From the NCBI GenBank assembly GCA_016861105.1, contig BOKS01000007.1:1-64000 (forward strand): a stretch of 64,000 nucleotides of DNA, written 5' to 3'. The notes under the pieces were generated by a model. That model searched no databases, was not told the origin of the DNA, and saw nothing but the letters and a program-made list of their open reading frames with translations. Origin of the DNA: Betaproteobacteria bacterium (GTDB taxonomy: Bacteria > Pseudomonadota > Gammaproteobacteria > Burkholderiales > Casimicrobiaceae). Below, piece by piece: positions 12,851 to 62,192 of the stretch (position 1 is its first letter; the number at the start of each line of letters is the position of its first letter). The translations under genes were made by a program, and so were the position numbers.

Positions 12851-13066
12851 GAACGAGGGTCAGGAACGAGGGTCAGACTCGCATTTCGCGGAATGAGGGT
12901 AACGAATGCGAAACGAGGGTCAGACTCGCATTTCGCGGCGCCGAGACGACCGCGAACGAGGGTCAGACTCGAATTTCGCGAACGTCGGCGGCGAACCCGA
13001 TGCCCGTGAACGTGATGTGCGTTCCTGGCCGCGAGCTCGCCGGGAAATCCGAGTCTGACCCTCGTT
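12851..13066. repeat. family A repeat element, locus 1 (mreB-mreC gap)
   Basis: Several copies of the ~20-bp unit GAGGGTCAGACTCGCATTT. Direct orientation: a half copy at 12851-12863, full copies at 12864-12890 and 12910-12937, a degenerate one at 12891-12909, and one at 12953-12979 with GAATTT. An inverted copy (AAATCCGAGTCTGACCCTCG) closes the element at 13045-13065. Copies facing each other across ~65 bp of unique sequence could form a large hairpin in the mre transcript. Confidence 0.85.
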
Positions 13067-21644: not shown

Positions 21645-21657
21645 GGCGCCTCCCTTC

Positions 21658-21703
21658 GGGGTCAGAGCCGTCATCTGCGGCCGCAGATGACGGCTCTGAC
21701 CCC
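21658..21703. repeat. family B repeat: perfect 46-bp palindrome before tolB
   Basis: The half-site GGGGTCAGAGCCGTCATC plus TGCGG (21658-21680) is followed immediately by its exact reverse complement (21681-21703), with no spacer. It begins 14 bp after the rlpA stop and ends 19 bp before a TATAAT for tolB. It could act as a terminator-like hairpin for rlpA or as a protein-binding site. Confidence 0.9.
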
Positions 21704-21722
21704 GTCGCGGGTATGACAACGT

Positions 21723-24691: not shown

Positions 24692-25855
24692 ATGGCCGCC
24701 CAGCGCGGCGCGCCGTTCGCGGCGCGGCTGGTCGCCTGGCAGTGGGTGCACGGCCGGCACGACCTGCCGTGGCAGCGCACGCGCGACCCGTATCGCGTCT
24801 GGCTGTCGGAGATCATGCTGCAGCAGACGCAGGTCGCCGCCGCCTTGCCGTACTACGAGCGCTTCCTCGCACGCTTCCCCGACGTGCGCACGCTCGCCGC
24901 CGCGACGCGCGACGACGTGCTGGCGCACTGGTCGGGGCTCGGCTACTACCGGCGCGCGCACCACCTGCACGAGGCGGCGCGCGCCGTCGTCGAGCATCAC
25001 CAGGGCGCGTTTCCCGCCGATCCGCAGGCGCTCGCCGCGCTGCCCGGCATCGGACGTTCGACCGCCGCCGCGATCGCGACCTTCGCGTTCGGCACGCGCG
25101 CCGCGATCCTCGACGGCAACGTGAAGCGCGTGCTGGCGCGCCACCGCGGCATCGACGGCTTTCCCGGCGCGCCGGCAGTCGAGCGGCAGCTGTGGCAGGC
25201 GGCCGAAGCATTGCTGCCCGACGCCGACGTCGAGGCCTACACGCAGGGGCTGATGGACCTCGGCGCCACCGTGTGCGTGCGGGCGAGCCCCCGCTGCCTG
25301 CTCTGCCCGGTCGCCGGCGACTGCCTGGCGCGCCGCGAGGGGCGGATCGACGCACTGCCCGCGCCGCGTCCCGCGCGTGCAGTCCCGCGTCGCGACGTGC
25401 AGCTGCTGGTGTGCGAGCGCGAGGGCCGGCTGCTGCTCGAGCGACGGCCCGCGCGCGGCGTGTGGGCCGGACTGTGGAGCCTGCCCGAGCTTCCGCTCGG
25501 GGAGGACGCCGCCGCCTTCGTGCAGGCGAGCCTCGGCGTCCGCCCCGCACGCAGCGAGGCGATGGCGCCGGTGGAGCACGCGTTCACGCACTTCACGCTG
25601 ACGATGCATCCGGTGCGCCTGCCGCTCGTCGACGCGCCCGATCACGCGCCTGCGGAGCGGCGGTGGTTCGGCCGCGAGGACGCGCTCGGCCTTGGACTCC
25701 CGGCGCCGGTCCGGCGGCTGATCGCCGGCCTCGACGCGCCGGTCGCCGGGCCGGCGGTTGCACCCCGCCGTCAGCGTGGCGGTGCGGGCACGCGGGGAAC
25801 GCCCGCGGCCCACGGGCGCAGCGCCGGCGGCAGGCGCTCGTCCGCGTCCGGGTAG
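24692..25855 (+). CDS. mutY: A/G-specific adenine DNA glycosylase
   Basis: 387 residues. Removes adenine mispaired with 8-oxoguanine. Catalytic Glu40 (LSEIMLQQTQV), helix-hairpin-helix LPGIGRSTAAAIA with catalytic Asp141 (ILDGNVKRVLAR), 4Fe-4S ligands Cys195-X6-Cys202-X2-Cys205-X5-Cys211, and a C-terminal NUDIX-like 8-oxoG recognition domain (LLLERRPARGVWAGLWSLPE). The family normally ends near PAPVRRLIAGL; here a ~38-residue Arg/Gly-rich tail continues through sequence that codes, on the other strand, for the end of the anti-sigma factor, an 85-bp tail-to-tail overlap. The tail is probably not functional. Confidence 0.95.
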   Translation: MAAQRGAPFAARLVAWQWVHGRHDLPWQRTRDPYRVWLSEIMLQQTQVAAALPYYERFLARFPDVRTLAAATRDDVLAHWSGLGYYRRAHHLHEAARAVVEHHQGAFPADPQALAALPGIGRSTAAAIATFAFGTRAAILDGNVKRVLARHRGIDGFPGAPAVERQLWQAAEALLPDADVEAYTQGLMDLGATVCVRASPRCLLCPVAGDCLARREGRIDALPAPRPARAVPRRDVQLLVCEREGRLLLERRPARGVWAGLWSLPELPLGEDAAAFVQASLGVRPARSEAMAPVEHAFTHFTLTMHPVRLPLVDAPDHAPAERRWFGREDALGLGLPAPVRRLIAGLDAPVAGPAVAPRRQRGGAGTRGTPAAHGRSAGGRRSSASG

Positions 25856-26868
25856 GCGGCGCGGAACGCGCGGAGTTCGCGGACGGCGTCATCGCCCCGG
25901 CCGGCGCCGAGGTGCGCTTCGATCCGGGCGACGTAGTCTTCGGCGGGAATTCGCGCTTCGGCGCGGCCGGCGTCCGTCGCCGCCTGGGCGTTGAGCCGCC
26001 TACCGTCGTCTCCCTGCAGGTCGCGGGCCGCCCCGCTCTCCCGCCGGGCTCCCGAAGCCGGCCCGGACGGCGTCGCTGGCGCGCCCCGTGCGGCCGGAGC
26101 GGCGGCGGGGGCGGACGTCGGAGGACCGGCCATTCCCGCGGCAGTCGCCGACTCAGAAGTAAGCGCCCGCTTGCGTCCCTCCTCGCTTTTCTCCTCGGCA
26201 GGCGGCGCCGGAGCGGCCGGAAACGCGCGCGGCATCCGCTCCTTCGGGGTCAGAGCCGTCATCTCCTTCGGGGTCGGAGCCGTCGTCTCCTTCGGGGTCG
26301 GAGCCGTCGTCTCCTTCGGGGTCGGAGCCGACACGGACGCCGGATCCCGCGGCTTCGGGGTCGGCTTCTCCTTCGGGGTCGGAGTCGTGTCTGACCCCCG
26401 ATCCTGCGGTGCCGGCCGCATCGCACCGCCTGCCTCGGCGGATGCCTTGGGGACTGCCGGCGCCACGGTGGAGCCGGGCACCGAGGGTGCGTCCGCTGCC
26501 GGCGCGCCGGCCTCGAGCTTGCGCTCCGCTGCGGTCTCGGCCGGACGCTTCGATGCCGTCGCCGGCATGTCGGTGGCGCCCGTCGGCTCGGTCGGGGCGG
26601 TGGGCGGAACGATCTGCACCAGGCCGAAGGCGATCGCGCCGATCGTCGCCGCGGCGGCGAGGCCCCACCACCACTTCGACGGCTCGCGCGCCTCGGCGAG
26701 CGCATCGTCGTCGCCGGCGGGACGCGGCCGCGAGCGCGCTTCGCGATGCGCGGCCGCGAGGATCGCGGCGTCGAGCGCCGGCGGCGGCGTCTCGACCGAG
26801 TACGCGCGCCACGCGGCGTCGAGCGCGGCGTCACGCTCGTCGGGCGCGGGGTGGTGGCGGTCGGTCAT
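25771..26868 (-). CDS. anti-sigma factor-like membrane protein with repeat-expanded linker
   Basis: 365 residues. Cytoplasmic N-terminal part (about residues 1-65) with a short helical region, one transmembrane helix (WWWGLAAAATIGAIAFGLVQIV), then a long low-complexity periplasmic linker and a C-terminal helical domain (IPAEDYVARIEAHLGAGRGDDAVRELRAFRAAYPDADERLPP). The linker contains APTPKETT repeats encoded by in-frame family B units (26243-26400). Its ATG overlaps the stop of the ECF sigma gene (ATGA), the usual coupling of a sigma factor with its inhibitor. Anti-sigma function is inferred from that pairing and topology; no ZAS zinc motif is seen. Confidence 0.75.
   Translation of the reverse strand: MTDRHHPAPDERDAALDAAWRAYSVETPPPALDAAILAAAHREARSRPRPAGDDDALAEAREPSKWWWGLAAAATIGAIAFGLVQIVPPTAPTEPTGATDMPATASKRPAETAAERKLEAGAPAADAPSVPGSTVAPAVPKASAEAGGAMRPAPQDRGSDTTPTPKEKPTPKPRDPASVSAPTPKETTAPTPKETTAPTPKEMTALTPKERMPRAFPAAPAPPAEEKSEEGRKRALTSESATAAGMAGPPTSAPAAAPAARGAPATPSGPASGARRESGAARDLQGDDGRRLNAQAATDAGRAEARIPAEDYVARIEAHLGAGRGDDAVRELRAFRAAYPDADERLPPALRPWAAGVPRVPAPPR
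26243..26400. repeat. family B units expanded in frame inside the anti-sigma gene
   Basis: Three tandem 24-bp units (26243-26266, 26267-26290, 26291-26314) beginning TTCGGGGTCAGAGCCGTC or its GGGTCGGAG variant, then three shortened or extended ones (from 26315, 26354 and 26372). The array ends with an inverted half site GTGTCTGACCCCCGATC. The 24-bp period keeps frame; on the minus strand each unit reads (A/E)-x-T-x-P-T-P-K-E-like octapeptides. Confidence 0.9.
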
Positions 26869-27452
26869 CGGAGGTCCTCGAGCGCGGCACGCAGCTTCGC
26901 GGTCGCGTAGCGCAGCCGGCTCTTCACCGTCTCCTCGCCGGCGCCAGTCAACTCGGCGATCTGCGCGAGCGTCATGCCGGCCTCCTGCTGCAGCAGGAAC
27001 GCATCGCGCTGCACGGCGGGAAGCGCGGCGAGCGCGGCCGCGATGCGCGCGCCGACCTCCTTCGCCGCGGTGCGCGTCTCCGGCTCGTCGGTGCGAGCAC
27101 CGGGGAGCGCGAGGGCGGCATCGCGTCCGTCGCCCGCGCCCTCGTCGTCGATCGACACGAACCCGAGCTGGCCGCGCGCGCGCCAGTGATCGACGAGGCG
27201 GTTGTGCGCGAGCGTGTACAGCCACCTCGTGAACTTCGCCGTGGGCACGTAACGCGCGCGGCCTCGGATGACGCCGGTCCACACGTCCTGGAACAGCTCC
27301 TCTGCGAGGCGCGCATCGTTGCAGTGGCGCACGAGGTAGCGGAACACCGGGCCCTTGTGCCGCGCGTACAGCCGGTCGAAGGCCTCGGCGCGGCCGGCGG
27401 CGTACGCGAGCATCAGCGGCTCGTCGGCGTCGTCCGGGCCTGGCGCGGGCAT
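26865..27452 (-). CDS. ECF-type RNA polymerase sigma factor
   Basis: 195 residues. Region 2: RLYARHKGPVFRYLVRHCND, AEELFQDVWTGVI and KFTRWLYTLAHNRLVDHWR. Region 4: LPAVQRDAFLLQQEAGMTLAQIAELTGAGEETVKSRL with the expected helix-turn-helix. No region 1.1 or 3, as in ECF sigma factors. ATG 27452 chosen; an ATG at 27509 would add 19 residues of Arg/Ala-rich sequence. It is co-translated with the anti-sigma gene; the Tat-exported protein gene precedes it by 69 bp and may be part of the same unit. The regulon is not visible. Confidence 0.9.
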   Translation of the reverse strand: MPAPGPDDADEPLMLAYAAGRAEAFDRLYARHKGPVFRYLVRHCNDARLAEELFQDVWTGVIRGRARYVPTAKFTRWLYTLAHNRLVDHWRARGQLGFVSIDDEGAGDGRDAALALPGARTDEPETRTAAKEVGARIAAALAALPAVQRDAFLLQQEAGMTLAQIAELTGAGEETVKSRLRYATAKLRAALEDLR

Positions 27453-30192: not shown

Positions 30193-30212
30193 TTCGGGGT
30201 CAGAGCCGTCAC
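30192..30212. repeat. solitary family B unit after the DUF1178 gene
   Basis: GATTCGGGGTCAGAGCCGTC followed by A begins at the gene's stop codon. It is the only single, unpaired family B copy seen. Confidence 0.75.
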
Positions 30213-30297
30213 ATTCCGCCGCCGGCGCGCGCCGGCGGCCCGCGGCGGTGTCGCGCGGCGGGGTCCCGTGGTGGGTGCGGCCCCGGGCAGAATCGGC

Positions 30298-30319: not shown

Positions 30320-30395
30320 GGGCCGTTAGCTCAGTCGGTAGAGCAGCGGACTTTTAATCCGTTGGTCGCTGGTTCGATCCCAGCACGGCCTACCA
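30320..30395 (+). tRNA. tRNA-Lys (anticodon TTT)
   Basis: 76 nt with encoded CCA. Acceptor stem GGGCCGT/ACGGCCT (G1-T72 wobble), D-loop AGCTCAGTCGGTAGAGC, anticodon loop CTTTTAA with TTT at 30353-30355, T-arm GCTGGTTCGATCCCAGC. Matches the bacterial tRNA-Lys pattern closely. Confidence 0.97.
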
Positions 30396-30445
30396 GCGCG
30401 TTGAGGCAGGCCGGGCGGGAGAGGATCCGGCGACGGAAGCACCCC

Positions 30446-30521
30446 GGGCCGTTAGCTCAGCTGGTAGAGCAGCGGACTCTTAATCCGTTGGTCGTAGGTT
30501 CGATCCCTACACGGCCTACCA
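30446..30521 (+). tRNA. tRNA-Lys (anticodon CTT)
   Basis: 76 nt with encoded CCA, nearly identical to its neighbour: same acceptor and D-arm, anticodon loop CTCTTAA with CTT at 30479-30481, T-arm GTAGGTTCGATCCCTAC. The pair probably arose by duplication; a dedicated CTT reader suits a GC-rich genome using AAG codons. Confidence 0.97.
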
Positions 30522-30582: not shown

Positions 30583-30819
30583 ATGCAAGAAGTCCTGCAA
30601 TGCCTCAAGAAGTACGGCCAGCGCCTCGACCTCGAGATCGCCGAGGAGATGCGCGTTCCCCTGGCGACGGTGCGGCGGCGGATTGCGGAGCTGAGCGCCA
30701 CCGGCGCCGTGGTGACCTGCAAGCTGACGCGCTACGAAGGCGAGAAGACGATCGAGGCGTGGCAGTGCCGCGTCTCGGGGTACGCGCCGGCGCCGGCGGC
30801 GGGGCGGAAGGCGAAGTAG
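30583..30819 (+). CDS. small winged-helix/HTH DNA-binding protein
   Basis: 78 residues. QEVLQCLKKYGQRLDLEIAEEMRVPLATVRRRIAELSATGAVVTCKLTRYEGEK reads as a winged helix-turn-helix: three helices then a beta wing, similar to small ArsR/MarR-like regulators. A short tail follows (WQCRVSGYAPAPAAGRKAK). The tail and downstream terminator are repeated in degenerate form at 32850 and 38661, so this gene's 3' end marks the edge of the accessory region. A role beyond DNA binding is unknown. Confidence 0.75.
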   Translation: MQEVLQCLKKYGQRLDLEIAEEMRVPLATVRRRIAELSATGAVVTCKLTRYEGEKTIEAWQCRVSGYAPAPAAGRKAK

Positions 30820-62005: not shown

Positions 62006-62046
62006 GCGGAGGCGCCGGGCCCGCGGGCGCGGCGTAGGATGCGAAA

Positions 62047-62192
62047 CGGGGTCAGAGCCGTCATCTCCCATCGGGGTCAGAGCCGTCATCTTCCGCGGCG
62101 TCGCGGCCGCAGGAAGGGCGATGCGGGAATGGACGGCCCCGGTACCGATCCTGCGAACTCGCCTGTCTGGAAGACGACGGCCCTGACCCCGA
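62047..62192. repeat. family B repeat element in the icmF leader
   Basis: Two direct units at 62047-62067 and 62072-62092 (CGGGGTCAGAGCCGTCATCT) and a degenerate inverted unit (GACGACGGCCCTGACCCC, 62173-62190) across ~80 bp. All lie between the operator/promoter and the icmF ATG, so they would be transcribed in the 5' leader. Confidence 0.75.

Follow-up and report, generated by a model that had tools for sequence, protein, structure and literature searches.

The DNA analysed here (the window) comprises 64,000 nucleotides with a G+C content of 71.7% and represents positions 1-64000 of contig C7 of a genome of 4.49 Mb in 28 contigs (G000). On its minus strand, an ECF sigma factor gene overlaps, at 26865-26868, the start of a gene encoding a membrane protein of 365 amino acid residues, within which an array of short repeats is read in frame (Table 1). 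Genes of anti-sigma factors overlap or follow ECF sigma genes, as this one does, while neither a Pfam match over the cut-off nor an NCBIfam match to a known anti-sigma domain was obtained in the 365-residue protein. Its designation as anti-sigma-like rests on the order of the two genes, on a single predicted membrane helix and on conservation, and sigma binding is putative. A mutY-like frame on the plus strand overlaps the gene tail to tail by 85 bp (25771-25855). Elsewhere in the window, two adjacent tRNA-Lys genes (anticodons TTT and CTT, 91% alike) are located at 30320-30521, and a dispersed G+C-rich repeat of 74 nt is present in three copies at 30784, 32917 and 38661, of which the second and third are 73 and 72% like the first, respectively.

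Table 1. Positions of the genes, protein segments, array units and repeat copies. Positions are those of the window unless a locus is named.
Feature	Position	Strand	Remark
ECF sigma factor gene	26865..27452	-	sigma domains matched; overlaps start of anti-sigma-like gene
Anti-sigma-like membrane protein gene, 365 aa	25771..26868	-	stop included
Predicted membrane helix, residues 64-86	26611..26679	-	helix in AlphaFold2 model and hydrophobic sequence; presumed to lie in the membrane
C-terminal helical domain, residues 309-355	25804..25944	-	pLDDT 95-98 in blocks 311-360; weak TPR-like matches only
Array unit 1	26239..26262	+	family-B core unchanged; encodes MTALTPKE
Array unit 2	26263..26286	+	encodes TTAPTPKE
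Array unit 3	26287..26310	+	sequence equal to unit 2
Array unit 4	26311..26334	+	end diverging
Degenerate array unit	26350..26367	+	core at 26357; 5 mismatches in 13-base core
Further array unit	26368..26388	+	core at 26375; 2 mismatches in 13-base core
Inverted, partly degenerate array unit	about 26387..26403	-	closes array
Family-B inverted pair, intergenic	21651..21708	.	near-perfect hairpin
Family-B single unit, intergenic	30193..30215	+
Family-B cluster	62045..62190	.	two direct units 25 bp apart and one inverted
Family-A cluster	12868..13063	.
purH with in-frame family-A pair	L053:1039-2652 (G000:C3)		product PurH, a purine-synthesis enzyme
dnaE2 with three in-frame repeat pairs	L033:1430-4783 (G000:C8)		NCBIfam error-prone DNA polymerase

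The AlphaFold2 model of the anti-sigma-like protein, built from 24 sequences (mean pLDDT 60.0, pTM 0.29), contained helices at residues 14-23, 30-46 and 64-86, a linker of low confidence and a well modelled helical end. Over residues 91-300 the block means of pLDDT were 41-51, and the linker is predicted to be disordered. When the model was compared with the PDB by Foldseek, 131 matches were found at E≤10 and none at E≤0.001; short TPR-like matches recurred among the matches listed (50 of 131).

The array occupies positions 26239-26403 and, read on the minus strand, encodes residues 156-210, DRGSDTTPTPKEKPTPKPRDPASVSAPTPKETTAPTPKETTAPTPKEMTALTPKE. In it, four units of 24 bp in tandem are followed by two degenerate ones and an inverted one. 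Tandem Repeats Finder (TRF) reported 26239-26330 with a period of 24, 3.8 copies and 97% match, and the score of 170 was the top of 57 rows for the window. GGGGTC cores were found at 26246, 26270, 26294, 26318, 26357 and 26375. The first-pass annotation had described a 24-bp-period array, which holds for the four tandem units; given the spacings of 24, 24, 24, 39 and 18 bp and the inverted end unit, the whole is longer and less regular. Each spacing is a multiple of 3, which by itself is weak evidence, since this was also the case for 22 of 52 direct same-family neighbours outside the anti-sigma-like gene, purH and dnaE2. Units 2 and 3 differ from unit 1 by two bases, which replace Met by Thr and Leu by Pro, and both changes are present in repeat copies outside the anti-sigma-like gene too; unit 4 and the cores at 26357 and 26375 have diverged further from unit 1. 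The codon scores of the array flanks were -30 and 11, and coding status was not called by score alone. A plus-strand frame was rejected as the real gene, since comparison with orthologues establishes the minus-strand frame on either side of the array. Folding of the array was no better than that of shuffled DNA (z +1.43 and +1.32): the element in this gene is no longer palindromic, and its hairpin has been lost.

The sequence of unit 1 is that of a repeat dispersed through the genome. Positions 26241-26264 are identical over 24 consecutive bases to the intergenic positions 21653-21676. The repeat family concerned, family B, has the core GGGGTCAGAGCCG, with TCAT often next to it, and its pattern GGGGTCAGAGCCGT (14-base core, at most one mismatch) gave 39 matches in the 4.49 Mb genome and none with the reversed control, which makes a chance origin of the array very unlikely. 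Three of these matches are array units, and at least two (C2:189932 and C16:21924), in ordinary coding sequence, are chance-like. A related repeat, family A, with the core GAGGGTCAGACTC, gave 152 matches at up to one mismatch and none with the reversed control. The copies of both families are dispersed, mainly intergenic, and form direct and inverted clusters (family A being sampled at 100 of its 152 places). Family B had been taken as intergenic elsewhere, and mostly it is; another family-B pair was, however, located inside dnaE2 of the same genome. Inverted pairs folded strongly, with z -10.75 for 21650-21708 and z -8.60 for dnaE2, and the two single units that were folded, one of each family, did not fold better than shuffled sequences (z -0.30 and -0.80). 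Family-B cores were present in 5 of 22 genomes of the genus.

A total of 61 clusters (167 units; family A from 100 of 152 places) was examined for position relative to genes, with two one-mismatch family-B matches in ordinary coding sequence (L029 and L036) left out. Five in-gene clusters were recognised, four of them in frame and free of stops by codon score (three in dnaE2 and one in purH) and the fifth, in the anti-sigma-like gene, by orthology. Among the same-strand clusters checked, the upstream frame stopped before the repeat in 18 of 21 and at or inside it in the other 3. Since 18 frames stop upstream, no clear frame-breaking insertion was seen among these 21 clusters, and the 3 could be truncations; clusters beyond the 21 were judged by flank codon scores alone.

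The same class of event has taken place in purH and dnaE2, where pairs of families A and B are read in frame once and three times, respectively. A pair was defined as a forward and then an inverted unit at most 180 bases apart, each with at most one mismatch. The PurH insert was found at the same place in 2 of 24 aligned sequences, those of G000 and of G002, the closest genome by PurH (85% identity). The insert of G002 is 9 residues longer, a length difference that is a multiple of 3 bp; its forward unit has two mismatches and was not counted under the strict rule. In DnaE2, pairs were found in 10 of the 19 sequences from the genus and in none of the other 6, some of the sequences being partial, and in 0 of 25 with the reversed motif as control. 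The pair counts exclude looser or lone matches in PurH of G007 and G049 and in DnaE2 of G006, G001 and G048. Matching DnaE2 loops across the genus (L033, L110, L106, L116 and L107) hold different repeat families. At the third DnaE2 site of G000, G002 carries an inverted dimer of another repeat, which starts with CGTC and ends with CCCA. This repeat had 145 matches in G002 at up to two mismatches, against none for the control, and two of the matches lie within dnaE2; it may be called CGTC-like, as we interpret the account of that class in PMC3733652. The first DnaE2 site of G002 (L110, near 1288-1500) has a CCCTCTCC...GGGAGAGG repeat in tandem copies that are read in frame, and in G017 (L113) a tandem GHRGQEA peptide repeat is present at the first site.

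Two IS200-type transposase genes were found among the repeats. The Y1 transposase gene at C7:107334-107660 has family-B units on both sides and contains one in-frame stop; because of this interruption, the present activity of the family-B transposase is doubtful. The Y1 transposase gene at C4:176848-177174, between family-A units, has an open frame of 231 aa, which matched Pfam Y1_Tnp, with NCBIfam REP_Tyr_transpos below its cut-off (70.2 vs 80 bits).

Matches to the anti-sigma-like protein were obtained in 18 of 61 genomes, its own included, and in these relatives the ends are conserved and the middle is variable and rich in Ala and Pro. The linker, array included, is 228 residues long, which is ordinary given the spread of the relatives: 135-274 (median 207) in 23 relatives (alignment A3) and 178-278 (median 232) in 10 proteins from the genus and family (alignment A1). 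The first-pass annotation had proposed a check for TPKE repeats in orthologues. By six-frame translation of the 22 loci matched by protein, PTPKE was found only at the window's own locus, and neither TPKE nor the repeat core was found in any of 77 neighbour frames of homologous operons, which indicates that the repeat came before the protein array. A simple rule was used to select these frames from the best 80 of 166 named loci; 3 of the 80 had no frame longer than 120 aa. At least two of the frames (L155 and L157) look disrupted or incorrect; both are still counted in the 77 and were left out of alignment A3. The closest named loci by sigma factor (best 80 of 166) were Burkholderiales or Betaproteobacteria records, mostly metagenome bins. 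One bin titled Bordetella parapertussis (L156) groups by sigma factor with uncultured Burkholderiales, and its name looks doubtful. In G002, no match to the anti-sigma-like protein (E≤0.001) or to the sigma factor (E≤1e-20) was found. Since the genomes compared yielded no close strain in which the site is empty, the insertion, its target site and the order of events are not directly visible.

According to the explanation that we consider probable as a whole, a mobile-element copy entered a tolerant linker and was then multiplied by frame-preserving slippage. The array would have started from one copy of a small mobile element with inverted repeats, of the type linked to IS200-like tyrosine transposases; the copy was presumably brought in by such an enzyme. 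The element would have been inserted into a stretch encoding a disordered, Ala/Pro-rich linker, in a frame without stop codons, and may have been tolerated because the linker serves as an unstructured spacer with little constraint on its length or composition, so that the effect was probably near neutral. Units would then have multiplied by slippage in 24-bp steps; the identity of units 2 and 3 fits recent slippage, which would leave them so. The other units would have drifted, multiples of 3 bp being kept, until the hairpin was lost. The two base changes could have been selected rather than neutral.

The repeat may instead have been selected as a length-variable spacer, in which the number of units tunes the transmission of a periplasmic signal to the anti-sigma part. 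Units of 24 bp can vary in number without a frameshift, and Thr for Met and Pro for Leu make the peptide more hydrophilic and richer in Pro and Thr, as in a linker; both changes, however, occur in other repeat copies, TPKE is found in 0 of the 77 neighbour frames, and the linker length is not conserved among the 23 relatives (135-274), within which the 228 residues with the array are ordinary. This reading is decidedly unlikely, and the length-variable switch proposed in the first-pass annotation, set in a linker predicted to be disordered and of a length inside the range of the relatives, found no support. We regard it as very unlikely that the repeat was kept for a role in DNA or RNA (a hairpin, protein binding or transcript stability) with the peptide as a by-product: the intergenic pair does form a strong hairpin (z -10.75) and in 18 of 21 clusters on the same strand the upstream frame ends ahead of the repeat, as for REPs, but it is the hairpin that the array has lost (z +1.43 and +1.32).

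The order of events could also be reversed, the TPKE repeat having evolved within the linker and the likeness of the DNA having come about by chance or by the array seeding the dispersed repeat. Repeats are frequent in Pro-rich linkers, and a few neighbour proteins carry PAPA or PPPP runs. Against this stand the 24-base identity to an intergenic copy, the 39 core matches versus 0 for the reversed control, and the family-B cores in 5 of 22 genus genomes, including G019, whose orthologue is without TPKE. A protein-first origin is most improbable and was rejected as largely refuted by the identity, the core matches and the G019 orthologue. The same identity and core matches, together with the reading of residues 156-210, bore out the claim that a mobile repeat of palindromic type is read in frame as protein, and insertion of a mobile element followed by slippage is the reading retained here.

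A wider reading is unlikely but can be stated: certain protein loops of the genus might be standing landing pads for unrelated palindromic mobile repeats, whose turnover, if selected, would supply replaceable linker cassettes for tuning, in this case of an error-prone polymerase and a stress regulator. At matching places in their DnaE2 loops, different species have pairs of family A, pairs of family B or CGTC-like dimers, the purH insert is kept in two species, and the anti-sigma linker has let one insert grow into an array. Species that have in-frame inserts and species that lack them, at corresponding places in DnaE2 and PurH, form a natural series that makes the question of neutral versus selected inserts directly testable.

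Among known systems, the Rickettsia palindromic elements (RPEs) offer the parallel named in the first-pass annotation, and the available texts make it an apt one (PMC10969869, PMC3733652). RPEs are described as elements of about 150 bp that form ten families in Rickettsia, with in-frame fusions to protein genes (PMC10969869). Both are small palindromic mobile elements read in frame in unrelated protein genes, and in-frame insertion in protein genes is found here as well. The repeats of this genome, compared with RPEs by description only, differ in belonging to Burkholderiales, in their units of about 20-25 bp set in pairs or rows, and in forming a head-to-tail array without a palindrome.

REPINs have been described (PMC3116915), and REPs inside genes have been reported, with DnaE2 named among the targets; according to the text available, intragenic dimers or groups add 20-30 aa and clusters 43-82 aa in Thauera and R. 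conorii, and GTAG and CGTC repeats are the two named REP classes (PMC3733652). Like these, families A and B have many dispersed copies, mostly between genes and often just 3' of genes, with some read inside genes. In contrast, the single units that were folded form no stem-loop, no GTAG or CGTC tag was seen by eye at the stem end, and an anti-sigma protein is not among the hosts mentioned in the available text (PMC3733652). A literature search, conducted mostly without subscription journals and supplementary lists, yielded no anti-sigma case and no in-frame terminal inverted repeat (TIR) elements, and no anti-sigma linker with tandem repeats by title and abstract.

Elements of TIRYT transposases carry GGGGWSAS in their terminal inverted repeats (PMC3733652; the consensus again in PMC6006769, both in their available text). 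The core GGGGTCAG of family B fits this motif, inverted pairs and clusters occur in both, and Y1 tyrosine transposase genes are flanked here by repeats on both sides, the likeness being drawn from motif and context. Unlike here, in-frame coding use is not described for TIR elements in the available text of the two sources (PMC3733652, PMC6006769). Published examples of such in-frame insertions already exist (RPEs and intragenic REPs, DnaE2 included; PMC10969869, PMC3733652), and the array is another case of this known, little-studied route from bacterial selfish repeats to protein. To the mobile palindromes turned protein it adds an uncultured Burkholderiales lineage, as well as elements with inverted repeats that fall into neither of the two named REP classes.
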